In this document: piece after piece, positions 16,753 through 24,659 of the stretch
How positions within the stretch are numbered: the first letter of the stretch is position 1
Layout of the letters: each line of letters starts with the position of its first letter
Source: Rhodococcus sp. AW25M09
Lineage (GTDB): Bacteria > Actinomycetota > Actinomycetes > Mycobacteriales > Mycobacteriaceae
Reading direction: 5' to 3'
NCBI RefSeq assembly: GCF_000333955.1
Contig: NZ_CAPS01000076.1
Span: 1-64,000 of the forward strand
DNA length: 64,000 nucleotides
Position numbers and translations under genes: made by a program
Notes under the pieces: generated by a model
What the model was told of the DNA's origin: nothing
Databases searched by the model: none
What the model saw: the letters and a program-made list of their open reading frames with translations, nothing else

Positions 16753-19700
16753 CTAGCGCTCGCTGACCAGACCGAGTGCCACGAGATCGGACAGATACTT
16801 CTCGATGAGTTCGCGCCCCAGGTGTGGAATCTCACCGATGGCAGCTGCGAATTCGTCCGCCGGCAGAATGGCACCGGACGACGGGTGTTGGGGACGCGCG
16901 TACGAGTGAATGAGGGGAAGCAGCGAGTGCGACCGCTGCTTGTCCGGTAGCGACTCGACCGCTGTGCTGAAACGCTGGAACCACTCGTCGTAGTTCTCGA
17001 CGATCTCGATGTCGCGACCGGCCTCACGGAGCCAGTCGACGAACGTGTCCAGCGAGATGTTGTCATCGTGTGGGTTGAGAATGTCGAAGGTTCGGTAGCC
17101 CGACAGGTCGTCGCCCGCGATCGTCGTGATGGCAGCAGCGCTGAAATCTGCAGGGAGCCCGTCGTAGTGGGCCAGTGGCCGTCCTTGCTCATCGGTCGGT
17201 GCGCCGGTGCCGGTGGCGTAGAACGTCCGTGGAGCCAAACCGGTGGCCACCACCGACAGGATCAGCCGGGTGAAGACATCCGGAACGTTGAGCTGTCCCG
17301 ACCATCTGCTGTGCGCCAGGATCATATCGGAGCGGAAGACCGACACCGGTAGATCGAACTCGTCGAACGCATTGCGCAACAACACTTCACCGGCCCACTT
17401 GGAGTTGCCGTAGCCGTTGGCGTAAGAGTCGTCGACCGCGCGCGACGGGCTGTCCGTGCGGATGTCGCCGTTCTCTCGGAAGTTATCGACGCCCACTGCA
17501 ACGGCTACCGTCGACAGGTAAGTGATCGGTTTGACGTGATGGGTGCGCGCAAGCCGGATCACCTCGCCCGTTCCGACGACGTTGGGGCCGAAGAGATGCT
17601 CGTACGGGAGTGCATGATTGACCAGCGCGGCGGGGTGGACGATGCGATCGACCCGCTCGGACAGCCTCGCGAAGGCATCTTCGGCCAACCCGAACCGAGG
17701 CGTGCCGAGATCGCCTGCCACGACCTCGAGGGCGGCGTCGGCCAACGTCCGGTAGCGATCGGACAGTTCTGCGTCGCCGCTGTCGAAGGCCGCGTCGAGT
17801 CGAGCTCGCGCGTCGGAGTCGGAGCGTCCGCGCACCAGGCAGATCACCCTGCCGCCGGCCTCGGCTATGCGCTCGAGCCACTCCAGGCACAGGAAGCGGC
17901 CGAGATATCCGTTGGCACCGGTCAACAGAACCGTGTCGGTTCGGTTCCCAGGCTTGGGAAGATGGCGCGCGGCATCGAGTAGAGCATCGTCGAGAAACGC
18001 AGACAGGCTCAGGTCGGAGGCGTGGGCTACGGTTGCGTCGCGACCGTGGACCGATGCGAAGGTTGCGGTGTCGGAATCGCTGTCGCGGGCCGAGGTGATG
18101 TACTCGGCCAGTGCATTCAGGTCCATGGCAGGCCCGGTAATGACACCGACCGGTACATCGACATCGTAGATGTCTCGCAACAGTGTCGAGAACGTCAACG
18201 CCGACAACGAATCTCCGCCGAGATCGCTGAAGTGGGCATCGGGCCTGATGTCGGAGGTCTCGCATCCGAGCAGGGCCTGTGCGGCGTCCCCGACCGTGGT
18301 CAGCACGGGGGCGTCGGCACCGCTGCGTCGAAGCTCGCGCAGGCGCTCGTTCTGACCCGACTCGAGTTCTGCGTAGCGGCGCTCGAGCTCGGCACCATAG
18401 CGTTCGACGAGTTTGGGTCGCAGTTGCTTGCCTGCACCGGACAGCAGTCCGTTTTGCTGCGTGAACGGTTGACGCTCGATCGTCACCTCACGCGGAATCT
18501 CGTACGAGTTCAACGATTCCGCCCGTGCGATGTGCTGCAGCGATTCGATGATCGAACCGGCCGTCGTATTCTGTTGAGCCGGAACGACGACAGCCAGCAG
18601 GTAGGAGCGTTGGCTGTTGCCGTAGACAAAGATCTGATCGACCAGGTCGCTCGTACCGAACAGTGCTTCGAGGCGTGCCAGCGCCACGAACTCGCCCTGA
18701 GCCAGCTTCAGAACGTTCTTGCGGCGATCGACATAGGCGAGCCGGTCCGGCTCGATCTCGGCGACGACATCGCCCGTGCGATAGAAGCCCTCGGAGTCGA
18801 AGACGTCGGCGGTGACGTCGGGACGTTTGTAGTAGCCGGGAATGATGGACGCCGTCTTGAGGAGTAGTTCGCCACGCGGATGCGGAGTGTCGGTGGAGAA
18901 GTAGCCGAGCTCGGGCACGTCGTCGAGCTTGTATTCGATCACCGGTGGCCGCGCAACGACGCCGTCGTGCAACACCATTCCGGCCTCGGTCGAGCCGTAG
19001 TTGTCACGAACCCGCACATCGAGCAACTCCGTGACGAACTCCTTGACCTCAGGGGCGATCGGTGCGGTGCCGACCATCGCCGCCAGGATGCGTCCGCCGA
19101 AGATTGCTGTCCTGTTGCGCTCCAACACCGCCCGACGCGTCTGCTCGTCGTCGCCCCCGGCAGAGCGTTCTGTCTCCCGATCGATCTCGGCGAGCACGGT
19201 GTGTCGAATCATCTCGCACACACGCGGAATCAGCAGTGCCAACGTGGGTCGAGCAAGCGCGAAATCGTCGAACAGTGTCGACAGGTCGCTGGCTCCTGCG
19301 AAGTGCACGGTCCCGCCTGCGGCCAGAGTCGAGAACACGAGTCCGCGCCCGGCCAGGTGACTCATCGGAAGATAGTCGAGGGTGATGACGGGAAAGGCCG
19401 GCTGGTCGGTAGCTTCTGAGGAGGCGCCGGTGTGGTGCCAGGCACCGGTCCACGCACCGCAGACGATTCGCTCGGTGTGCATCGCACCTTTCGGGGTGCC
19501 GGTGCTACCCGAGGTGTAGATCAGCGTTGCGAGTCGGTCGGGATCCTCGGCGTCGGGTAGAGGAACCTCCGGAAGCTGTGCGCCGTCGCGGATCATGTCG
19601 GTGAGTGGTTGGACGACGACGCCCACTGGTTCGGCGTCCTCGCGGGCGGCCGACATGGTGTGCGCGTGAGCGTCGATCGCTCCGTCGTAGTCGAGCACGA

Positions 19701-20271
19701 TGATTCGGCGAATGGACCGGCAATGCGCTGCAACCTGAACCGCCACGGACAGATTGTCGACACCGGCTGCGAGAACGACCGGTTCGACCTCGCTTGCGAT
19801 CGCGGCCAGCTGGCCGGCGGAGGCACCGGCCTGCAGAGGGACGGCGACTGCGCCCAATCGGATAGTGGCCAATTCGGCGATCACGTAATCGACGCCGGCG
19901 AATCCCAGGGTTGCGAAGAAGTCCCCTGGGGCGATGCCGAGTTCGTCGTGCTTCAGTGCCGAGGCCAGGGCGCCTGCATCGGTCCAGGCCTGACCGTAGG
20001 TGATGGTCTCGAACTGCGGGAGCAGGTGGAGGGTGTGGGCGTCGTCGATCTCTCGGCCGCGGCGGCCGAGTGCCGGTCGATCCGAGTAGCGCGTCATGAT
20101 CTCGGCGACCACGCGGGCGAGGTTGGGCGACAACTCCTGCGCTGCGTCGGCCACCGCGCTGACGGGCTCGGCGGCCCGAAACTCACGGTCGGTCTCGTGC
20201 AGGTCCTGGTATCTACTGCGCTGCCTGCTGTCACGATCCTGTTCGCTGTCGACGGTCAGTGTGTGCGTCAT
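16753..20271 (-). CDS. car: Carboxylic acid reductase (A-PCP-R)
   Basis: 1172-aa multidomain enzyme that reduces carboxylic acids to aldehydes using ATP and NADPH. Adenylation domain about 40-640: P-loop IYTSGSTGTPKGAM at about 251-264, DNYGSTEAG near 423, YRTGDVV near 497, hinge DRRKNVLKL. Carrier domain about 655-730: HFSDLGGDSLSALTF with the phosphopantetheine Ser at about 688. Reductase domain about 760-1172: LLTGANGYLGRFL (Rossmann, about 783-795) and the Tyr/Lys pair in YGNSKWAGE (about 954/958). Length and domain order are those of Nocardia and Mycobacterium CARs. It needs a phosphopantetheinyl transferase encoded elsewhere. The divergent neighbour is an acyl-CoA dehydrogenase across a 279-bp AT-richer control region. 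Confidence 0.97.
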   Translation of the reverse strand: MTHTLTVDSEQDRDSRQRSRYQDLHETDREFRAAEPVSAVADAAQELSPNLARVVAEIMTRYSDRPALGRRGREIDDAHTLHLLPQFETITYGQAWTDAGALASALKHDELGIAPGDFFATLGFAGVDYVIAELATIRLGAVAVPLQAGASAGQLAAIASEVEPVVLAAGVDNLSVAVQVAAHCRSIRRIIVLDYDGAIDAHAHTMSAAREDAEPVGVVVQPLTDMIRDGAQLPEVPLPDAEDPDRLATLIYTSGSTGTPKGAMHTERIVCGAWTGAWHHTGASSEATDQPAFPVITLDYLPMSHLAGRGLVFSTLAAGGTVHFAGASDLSTLFDDFALARPTLALLIPRVCEMIRHTVLAEIDRETERSAGGDDEQTRRAVLERNRTAIFGGRILAAMVGTAPIAPEVKEFVTELLDVRVRDNYGSTEAGMVLHDGVVARPPVIEYKLDDVPELGYFSTDTPHPRGELLLKTASIIPGYYKRPDVTADVFDSEGFYRTGDVVAEIEPDRLAYVDRRKNVLKLAQGEFVALARLEALFGTSDLVDQIFVYGNSQRSYLLAVVVPAQQNTTAGSIIESLQHIARAESLNSYEIPREVTIERQPFTQQNGLLSGAGKQLRPKLVERYGAELERRYAELESGQNERLRELRRSGADAPVLTTVGDAAQALLGCETSDIRPDAHFSDLGGDSLSALTFSTLLRDIYDVDVPVGVITGPAMDLNALAEYITSARDSDSDTATFASVHGRDATVAHASDLSLSAFLDDALLDAARHLPKPGNRTDTVLLTGANGYLGRFLCLEWLERIAEAGGRVICLVRGRSDSDARARLDAAFDSGDAELSDRYRTLADAALEVVAGDLGTPRFGLAEDAFARLSERVDRIVHPAALVNHALPYEHLFGPNVVGTGEVIRLARTHHVKPITYLSTVAVAVGVDNFRENGDIRTDSPSRAVDDSYANGYGNSKWAGEVLLRNAFDEFDLPVSVFRSDMILAHSRWSGQLNVPDVFTRLILSVVATGLAPRTFYATGTGAPTDEQGRPLAHYDGLPADFSAAAITTIAGDDLSGYRTFDILNPHDDNISLDTFVDWLREAGRDIEIVENYDEWFQRFSTAVESLPDKQRSHSLLPLIHSYARPQHPSSGAILPADEFAAAIGEIPHLGRELIEKYLSDLVALGLVSER

Positions 20272-23142: not shown

Positions 23143-24405
23143 TTACACGGCCGTCGTCACGGCGATGCCTTCGCGAATCAGCCTGCGCGCAATGACGAGT
23201 GCGTCGTCGGTGTCGAGGCCTGGCAGCGAGTCCAGACGGCAGGGTGTACCGCGCGCAATCTGTTCGAGAGCATCGGCGCACTGGGTCGGCATCGTCACGG
23301 TCTTGTTGCGCAGCACTATCGATACGCCGTCCGTCCCGCGCACGATGCGAGCGATGACGCCGGCCCGGAGCCGAATGGAATCCTCGCCTCGCAATGCCCC
23401 CATGGCGGCCACACTCTGCAGAGGCCGCACCGGTGCCGGTCGGACGAGATCGTCGTACCGATCGGCGACGCGGTCGGCGAGGCGGCGAACCGCGTCGGGA
23501 TCTCGGTCGATCTCGTCGAGGGCGGTGCGCATGGCATCGAGAACTCGGTGGACGTGGGGTACGACGGACTCTGGATCGGTTGGATCGAATCCGGCGGGTA
23601 GCGGAGCACGCACACTCTCGACGTCACCGAGGGCTTTCAGCGCGTGATGAGCGATGTCGTAGTCATTGAACGACGCGACCCCGACTGTCAGGTGAATGGT
23701 GGTATCTCCGAGGGCCTGAGCCGAGTGAATCCACCCGCGAGGAAGGTAGAGCACGTCCCCGGGTTCGAGCACGACATCCAGTGCGGGAGAGTTCGACGCC
23801 TGCTCTTCGACGGCCGAACGCCGGTCGGACCACGGCTGATTGTTGAGTGGATGGACGTGTACCGGCGAGTGAACGATCCACCGCTTGGTGCCTGCGATCT
23901 GAACAACGAACACGTCGTGCACGTCGTAGTGAGGCGAAAAGCCCTGTGACGCTGCCGGTGTGACGTACGAATTCACCTGGGCGGGATGGCCTAGCTCGCG
24001 AACGAGGTCACCGACGAAATGGATCAGCGGTGGCCACAAGCGGTGCAGACCCTGCAAAACGAGGGTATTCCCGGCCGCGAACGATTCCAGCACCGCACCC
24101 GAGTCGATCTGGTCGGTCACCTCTGCTCCGAACCCACCGGAGGCCGTGAAGTGCGTTTTGTCCACCAGCCGGCCGTCCTTGGCCATGCGCACGAACGGTG
24201 TGCGTACTCCGCGTTCGGCAATCAGCTCGTCCACCGCATCGAGCGTCATCAGATCATCGAACGTCTCCGGTAGGTCAGCGGACCGCGTCAGCCTGGGAGC
24301 GATACCCCAGAACCGATCTGCGAATGTCTCGAGGTCGAGGCCGGTGAGACGACGGAGCGCGGACCGGTGATCCGATCCGCGCTCGTCGCTCGACTCAGTG
24401 ATCAA
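23143..24405 (-). CDS. JmjC/cupin_4-type Fe(II)/2-oxoglutarate oxygenase
   Basis: 420 aa. The jelly-roll core contains the facial triad HYD (His159, Asp161) in GFSPHYDVHDVFVVQ and the distal His227 in LPRGWIHSAQ, with GTKRWIV between; the C-terminal half is helical, ending in a winged-helix-like region as in bacterial ribosomal-oxygenase relatives (YcfD/RoxA group). Relatives hydroxylate Arg, His or Asn of proteins. The annotated start is TTG at 24405, overlapping the stop of the upstream repeat-peptide gene as TTGA, implying translational coupling. Because its nearest partner is a tiny repeat peptide rich in Asn/His/Asp, the peptide is the obvious candidate substrate (inference). Confidence 0.88.
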   Translation of the reverse strand: MITESSDERGSDHRSALRRLTGLDLETFADRFWGIAPRLTRSADLPETFDDLMTLDAVDELIAERGVRTPFVRMAKDGRLVDKTHFTASGGFGAEVTDQIDSGAVLESFAAGNTLVLQGLHRLWPPLIHFVGDLVRELGHPAQVNSYVTPAASQGFSPHYDVHDVFVVQIAGTKRWIVHSPVHVHPLNNQPWSDRRSAVEEQASNSPALDVVLEPGDVLYLPRGWIHSAQALGDTTIHLTVGVASFNDYDIAHHALKALGDVESVRAPLPAGFDPTDPESVVPHVHRVLDAMRTALDEIDRDPDAVRRLADRVADRYDDLVRPAPVRPLQSVAAMGALRGEDSIRLRAGVIARIVRGTDGVSIVLRNKTVTMPTQCADALEQIARGTPCRLDSLPGLDTDDALVIARRLIREGIAVTTAV

Positions 24406-24659
24406 GCGCTGCCGTCCGCACCGCCGTCGTGTCCGTTGGGGTTGGATCCGCCGTCGGCCGGGCCTTCGCCCGCTCCGGCGGGACCGTCGGCTCCGCCGTC
24501 GTGACCGTCAGGGTTCGATCCGCCGTCGGCCGGGCCTTCGCCCCCTCCGGCGGTGCCGTCGGCTCCGCCGTCGTGGCCGCCGGGGTTGGATCCGCCGTCT
24601 GCTGGGCCTTCGCCTGCGGCTCCGCCCGAAGTGGTGATGTCGTCGTCGTTGATGCTCAT
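24402..24659 (-). CDS. Small Gly/Asp-rich repeat peptide, candidate RiPP precursor
   Basis: 85 aa. Leader-like N-terminus MSINDDDITTSGGAA, then three near-identical 24-residue units (17-40, 41-64, 65-85, the last shortened), each containing EGPADGGSNPxGHDGGADG. Variable positions are x (G, D, N) and the residue after ADG (T, P, S). Each unit offers one Asn, one His and several Asp. It has no Cys or aromatic residue and is highly acidic. GGAAGG precedes the ATG. The stop overlaps the JmjC oxygenase start. I recall similar 'DGGADGG' peptides annotated only as BatC-like or hypothetical in actinobacteria; no function is established to my knowledge. Confidence 0.8.
   Translation of the reverse strand: MSINDDDITTSGGAAGEGPADGGSNPGGHDGGADGTAGGGEGPADGGSNPDGHDGGADGPAGAGEGPADGGSNPNGHDGGADGSA
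24405..24611 (-). repeat. Three in-frame 72-bp tandem repeats
   Basis: Units at 24540-24611, 24468-24539 and 24405-24467 (truncated) encode the 24-residue peptide repeats. Differences between copies include both synonymous and amino-acid-changing sites, so the array is an older duplication under protein-level constraint, not a recent sequencing or slippage artefact. Confidence 0.85.

Follow-up and report, generated by a model that had tools for sequence, protein, structure and literature searches.

A repeat peptide and its partner JmjC oxygenase in Rhodococcus sp. AW25M09: a candidate RiPP-like gene pair of Actinomycetota

A stretch of 64,000 nucleotides of Rhodococcus sp. AW25M09 (contig NZ_CAPS01000076.1, positions 1 to 64,000; the window) carries a gene for an acidic Asp/Gly-rich repeat peptide that overlaps the gene for a JmjC oxygenase of the kind dependent on Fe(II) and 2-oxoglutarate (2OG). 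Among described pathways for ribosomally synthesized and post-translationally modified peptides (RiPPs), BipG is a JmjC Orn hydroxylase acting on a RiPP precursor (PMC12707348). BipG/BpmG and PbsQ of the biphenomycin-type RiPPs resemble the window enzyme as JmjC or cupin-like 2OG hydroxylases working on a ribosomal precursor. However, they tailor Orn in a multi-enzyme cluster with an MNIO, a radical SAM enzyme and a protease (PMC12707348, PMC12257519), whereas the window pair consists of an Asp-rich repeat peptide and a single oxygenase. The bacterial JmjC proteins most closely homologous to eukaryotic fusions between a RiPP recognition element (RRE) and JmjC (PF08007) are stated to sit in RiPP-like genomic contexts (PMC12710340). 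The likeness to these proteins lies in a PF08007 JmjC joined to an RRE-like domain. The statement is confined to one sentence, concerning homologues of proteins from fish and algae, and neither a precursor family nor an Asp repeat, an actinobacterial clade or a Suc_Fer partner is described in the parts covered of that paper.

The known substrates of NO66, MINA53 and YcfD are ribosomal proteins, whereas the window oxygenase gene is linked to a cognate peptide gene. AspH, which carries out Asp/Asn beta-hydroxylation of epidermal growth factor (EGF) domains, offers a chemical precedent for 2OG-dependent Asp hydroxylation of repeated peptide segments; it is another enzyme, acting on disulphide-bonded domains in the endoplasmic reticulum, and the likeness is chemical and implies no kinship. 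Potashchelins carry beta-hydroxyaspartate in an iron-binding peptide and thus form a precedent for a metal hypothesis, but they are lipopeptide siderophores whereas the window peptide is a gene-encoded repeat peptide. Siderophores of the potashchelin type are of nonribosomal origin. A description of the window peptide was not found in the open-licence PMC literature, in which the repeat letters were also searched as text. The system is RiPP-like with a known enzyme fold, and its core type, distribution and partner were not found described in the literature searched. The peptide/oxygenase pair, often accompanied by a gene for an iron-sulphur protein, appears to represent a family of modified peptides not yet described.

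The gene pair and its conservation

The peptide gene consists of 85 codons and a stop, with an ATG start and GGAAGG six bases 5′ of it. It is followed by the oxygenase gene of 420 codons, whose TTG start shares the bases TTGA with the peptide TGA. Both open reading frames (ORFs), with three 24-residue units in the peptide, were found as claimed in an earlier note on this DNA (the original prediction), and the flanking convergent SDR and divergent idi genes, named by reading, are also visible in the window. The features are listed below.

24405..24659, minus strand: Asp/Gly-rich repeat peptide, putative precursor, 85 aa (ORF, repeat, third-codon-position bias, position upstream of the oxygenase)
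24402-24404, minus strand: peptide stop codon (ORF reading; ORF including stop, 24402-24659)
24624..24659, minus strand: putative leader MSINDDDITTSG, residues 1-12 (conserved columns in 26 peptides; loose motif in 147 peptides)
24540..24611, minus strand: repeat unit 1, residues 17-40 (Tandem Repeats Finder, TRF, and aligned peptides)
24468..24539, minus strand: repeat unit 2, residues 41-64 (TRF and aligned peptides)
24405..24467, minus strand: repeat unit 3, shortened, residues 65-85 (TRF and aligned peptides)
23143..24405, minus strand: JmjC_2/cupin_4 Fe(II)/2OG oxygenase, 420 aa, TTG start (overlaps the peptide stop)
23665..23994, minus strand: JmjC core with H159, D161, K174 and H227 (PF08007 match in the genome search; invariant columns)
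23146..23442, minus strand: C-terminal winged-helix domain of RRE-like fold, residues 322-420 (fold comparison)

The pairing was followed in named relatives, the best 80 of 559 confirmed oxygenase loci, which include Rhodococcus, Dietzia, Gordonia, Mycobacterium, Williamsia, Cellulomonas and many Microbacteriaceae. By reading, a GEGxADGG(S/A)NPxGHDGG peptide lies directly 5′ of the oxygenase at all 80. An acidic-ORF rule (ORF end at -260 to +60 nt from the oxygenase; last 70 residues with at least 10% Asp, at least 15% Asp+Glu and at most 6% Lys+Arg) caught 77 of them; of the three others, L033 is at a contig edge, L050 has a masked run and L073 a split frame. As a control, the rule fired at 6 of 747 other long ORFs of the same loci. 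An acidic Asp-rich ORF was present 5′ of the oxygenase at 62 of 62 further clade loci (61 by rule, one by eye), a set that overlaps the 80 named loci and is not independent of them (L114 is L055 in the tree; L117 and L120 are apparent counterparts of L020 and L022). Across 394 genomes sampled class-wide, the oxygenase profile matched 127 at 1e-20, and 63 of these, reaching 1e-100 or better, form a sharp clade. The peptide profile matched 41 genomes, all with the clade oxygenase adjoining in the places listed, and a peptide match without the oxygenase occurred in none of the 394. Thus, the proposal that the peptide would always accompany this JmjC clade was borne out. In a phylum-wide sample of 396 genomes, 29 matched the oxygenase at 1e-60, including 15 from other classes. 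Loci were readable for 7 of these 15, and in each the upstream peptide is acidic and Asp-rich and a Suc_Fer-like match is present. The pairing is genuine and ancient, and runs deep across Actinomycetota. At L183 (G274), the oxygenase is split over two neighbouring frames (profile to 217 and from 220) beside an intact peptide, by a frameshift or an assembly error.

The peptide gene holds a tandem repeat with a 72-bp unit in 2.8 copies (88% matches, TRF score 315). Compared with five close relatives of equal length, 17-25 differences were seen at codon position 3, against 2-5 at the first position and 2-3 at the second. This concentration at position 3 marks the frame as coding and subject to purifying selection. 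Antisense frame -2 also changes rather little, with 8-11 residue differences compared with 4-7 for the real frame. A chance ORF or repeat artefact was ruled out by this bias together with the conservation in relatives. The window peptide gave no match in Pfam, NCBIfam or PHROGs, ruling out membership in a named family there, and six other peptides of the pairing gave none in NCBIfam. It contains 13 Asp, 30 Gly and no Lys or Arg, with a net charge of -16, and its core is devoid of aromatic residues, Cys and Lys. In 26 aligned peptides D5 and D7 of the leader are invariant and D6 and I8 nearly invariant; a loose leader motif is present in 125 of 147 peptides and absent from 22.

Peptides vary far more than the oxygenase. 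The repeat number is hypervariable (1-4 by motif count) and the core is variable; the leader is more constant. Divergent acidic ORFs occupy the same place in the 22 clade genomes that gave no peptide-profile match, and the divergent types comprise (GGAD)n runs, EGPADGGAEGTPGVQDGGADGG units, DSTQADPQGSDPAG units and DGTD/TDGD repeats. Within the clade, L168 (G081) and L169 (G273) have a long upstream acidic ORF with hardly any repetition, which ends in GADLxEDQxxGxGPTxEPGA and would represent a changed precursor type. On an oxygenase tree of 99 rows (15 others being omitted as too short or with an extended start that ran into a stop), peptide types, labelled from patterns and in one case (L131) from reading, require 11 changes against a shuffled mean of 49.9, a value as low being reached in none of 200 shuffles. 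The NPxGHDGG type requires 2 changes against 27.7, with at least one separate appearance (L150, L154). Because the peptide types need so few changes on the oxygenase tree, peptide and enzyme are concluded to have evolved together.

The oxygenase, its candidate target and rival explanations

The window oxygenase matched JmjC_2 (PF08007) with an E value of 1.2e-29 and 102.9 bits, the curated cut-off being 22. All 26 aligned relatives share H159, D161, H227 and K174, and the predicted HxD...H triad is intact. We take H159, D161 and H227 to be the Fe triad and K174 the 2OG-binding Lys, as in MINA53 and NO66. The enzyme belongs to the fold family of the ribosomal oxygenases, and its closest solved relatives are histidyl hydroxylases. 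The C-terminal domain has the fold of an RRE. A sequence search with this domain returned a single, irrelevant PDB match (E 0.89), and Pfam matches to it were found in single members only, PqqD being absent among them. A second, weak JmjC_2 match (25.2 bits) occurs in the window genome outside the window, in a 128-aa open frame (G000:C142:5649-5849, L205).

The original prediction had proposed Asn, His or Asp as the target, with one conserved residue of each per repeat. Across the units of the named relatives, Asn (224 of 227) and His (223 of 227) are indeed near-invariant; the count fails for Asp, which occurs three times per unit of the window peptide (ADGG, HDGG, ADG) and four times in unit 2. 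Over 147 peptides, Asp and Gly were present in all, His in 130 and Asn in 106, the last two counts being inflated by several ORF starts that are too long, and beyond residue 20 both His and Asn are missing from 18 peptides. In the residue-context counts, Ala is the usual residue before Asp (869) and Gly the usual one after it (1212). Because Asp is present in every peptide whereas these 18 have neither of the others, the common target, if it is a single residue, would be Asp. Thus, His and Asn are lowered as general targets and Asp is, on these sequence patterns, the more likely conserved one. The near-invariant Asn and His of the window subfamily may serve as extra targets or metal ligands. 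In the Dietzia loci L026, L027, L029, L035 and L045 the units are parted by an HHMKGEGEG-like insert (HHTKGEGEG in L035), and in L026, L027, L035 and L045 the last unit has Ala for His.

A gene-encoded putative precursor linked to a candidate modifying enzyme, as looked for in a RiPP, is present here. We consider it fairly probable that the genes form a RiPP-type pair, in which the leader would bind the RRE-like domain and Asp residues of the polyanionic core would be hydroxylated at the JmjC centre. The peptide and the oxygenase would be made together by coupled translation, the coupling itself being evident from the gene overlap. The short acidic leader (MSINDDDITT) would be held by the C-terminal RRE-like winged-helix domain, through which recognition probably occurs, and the flexible Asp-Gly core would be fed through the Fe(II)/2OG centre repeat after repeat. 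Asp side chains would be hydroxylated, probably at the beta carbon and up to about ten per window peptide, as residue conservation and family chemistry suggest. The product would be a hydroxylated polyanion, perhaps metal-binding, and its partner in most relatives would be the Suc_Fer-like protein (PF06999), a family which presumably holds a [2Fe-2S] cluster. Since this recurrent partner is of [2Fe-2S] type, the enzyme depends on Fe and hydroxyaspartate has the character of a ligand, a metal, and above all iron, is the most attractive guess for a role. An extended scheme, which we put forward as speculative and rather unlikely, is that of phylum-wide gene-encoded beta-hydroxyaspartate polypeptides: the RRE-JmjC enzyme would turn Asp-Gly repeats into a multidentate ligand for a metal, probably ferric iron, and the Suc_Fer-like (in the distant clade, FhuF-like) [2Fe-2S] protein would reduce and release it. 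Such a product would be a ribosomal counterpart of the hydroxyaspartate siderophores, possibly an intracellular iron buffer. The RRE-like C-terminal fold is, however, also common to NO66 and MINA53. In a scan of 146 upstream regions with eight operator patterns (IdeR, two Zur, Fur, LexA, SigH, CsoR-like, DosR), no pattern scored above shuffled sequence; a metal-regulated promoter was rejected on this ground, and the null result for iron and zinc operators does not help the metal hypothesis.

Other explanations of the pairing were considered. In a precursor/modifier pair of this kind, the enzyme could, in the window subfamily, hydroxylate the conserved His or Asn of SNPxGHDGG, as NO66 and MINA53 act on His. 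The near-invariance of both residues and the histidyl hydroxylases among the solved relatives favour this, but the peptides having neither residue, the (GGAD)n peptides (e.g. L135, L153), in which Asp is the only polar repeat target, and the replacement of His by Ala in four of the 227 units make it unlikely. Another 2OG reaction on the peptide, such as crosslinking, macrocyclisation or desaturation instead of simple hydroxylation, appears more doubtful still, as the relatives of solved structure are hydroxylases and the window core offers no aromatic, Cys or Lys partner. Finally, the peptide could bind the oxygenase as a regulator, a chaperone or a polyanionic mimic, for instance by blocking a ribosomal-substrate groove, the substrate being a ribosomal protein as for NO66, MINA53 and YcfD. 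The fold family of the enzyme agrees with this, and a strongly acidic, signal-less, low-complexity peptide could mimic RNA. We nevertheless regard it as very improbable, since a precursor is the better match for a peptide whose repeat number and core are hypervariable and whose leader is more constant. In addition, a more distant clade has enzymes of this family alongside short peptides and a prolyl oligopeptidase, a setting of peptide maturation.

Provided that the peptide is modified by the enzyme, the pair would constitute a minimal RiPP system of one peptide and one enzyme that is ancient and widely distributed among Actinomycetota. Its cores, pared down to Asp-Gly or Asp-Thr repeats, would differ from the Cys-, Ser- or aromatic-rich cores usual in RiPPs. 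The fold of the ribosomal oxygenases (human NO66, MINA53) would then be tied to peptide biosynthesis, a tool for repeat peptides carrying many hydroxyaspartates could follow, and a conserved gene pair whose peptide side was left unnamed by profile searches would gain a testable function.

Partner genes, distant groups and setting

Neighbour clustering revealed one ORF family directly downstream on the same strand, identified by Pfam as Suc_Fer-like (15 of 84 neighbour proteins scanned). By profile, the gene lies directly downstream at 112 of 142 clade loci (61 of the 80 named and 51 of the 62 further ones) and at 9 of 27 distant loci; the profile includes one wrongly chosen ORF (L047), L075 and L194 were counted absent with a match just beyond the distance rule, and for eight loci scored as lacking the gene no more than 1.1-1.6 kb of downstream sequence was available. 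Conserved Cys and His residues occur in 17-18 of 18 aligned copies. A strictly two-gene system is thus ruled out for most relatives. The gene is absent downstream in the closest relatives of the window (L001-L007), and the window genome has no PF06999 match; the pair can therefore stand alone. The predicted self-contained precursor/modifier pair holds strongly as a pairing; it comprises two genes in the window lineage and three in most relatives. No exporter or protease, a common and not universal companion of RiPPs, recurs beside the main clade in the neighbour clustering or among the 84 proteins scanned.

Eight f19 loci form one branch of the oxygenase tree. At least five (L180, L191, L197, L200, L201) have a short upstream peptide, EVTSRDxTAGxxxDGTDxSSDFI-like, and clustering placed a prolyl oligopeptidase-like gene upstream on the oxygenase strand in six (L180, L191, L193, L197, L199, L200). 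Pfam Peptidase_S9 was found in 7 of 68 neighbours, and the recurrent prolyl oligopeptidase is limited to the f19 group. A FhuF-like protein is encoded at L193 and L201, with FhuF_C above and FhuF below the cut-off. From its gene content, this group looks like a second, separate RiPP-like cluster type. The acidic-ORF rule fails at 14 of the 27 distant loci, including L176, L181, L182 and L196, where no peptide was seen. Thus, the pairing is a property of particular clades and not of every PF08007 protein. At L175 (G354), a Cys- and Asp-rich, precursor-like peptide, MAETKTLKMDEIQVETAPAADPQFLICDPDPSDDCWIVCNPNYCY, lies about 170 nt upstream of another distant JmjC gene.

Plasmid records matching the oxygenase numbered 37, of which 33 were from Streptomyces; because all were below 60% identity, no clade member was seen on a plasmid, and a mobile element was rejected on this result. 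In PHROGs, three families of unknown function matched the oxygenase and none the peptide. Elsewhere in the window, a 1172-aa ORF at 16753-20271 on the minus strand resembles, by reading only, a carboxylic acid reductase with adenylation, carrier and reductase parts.
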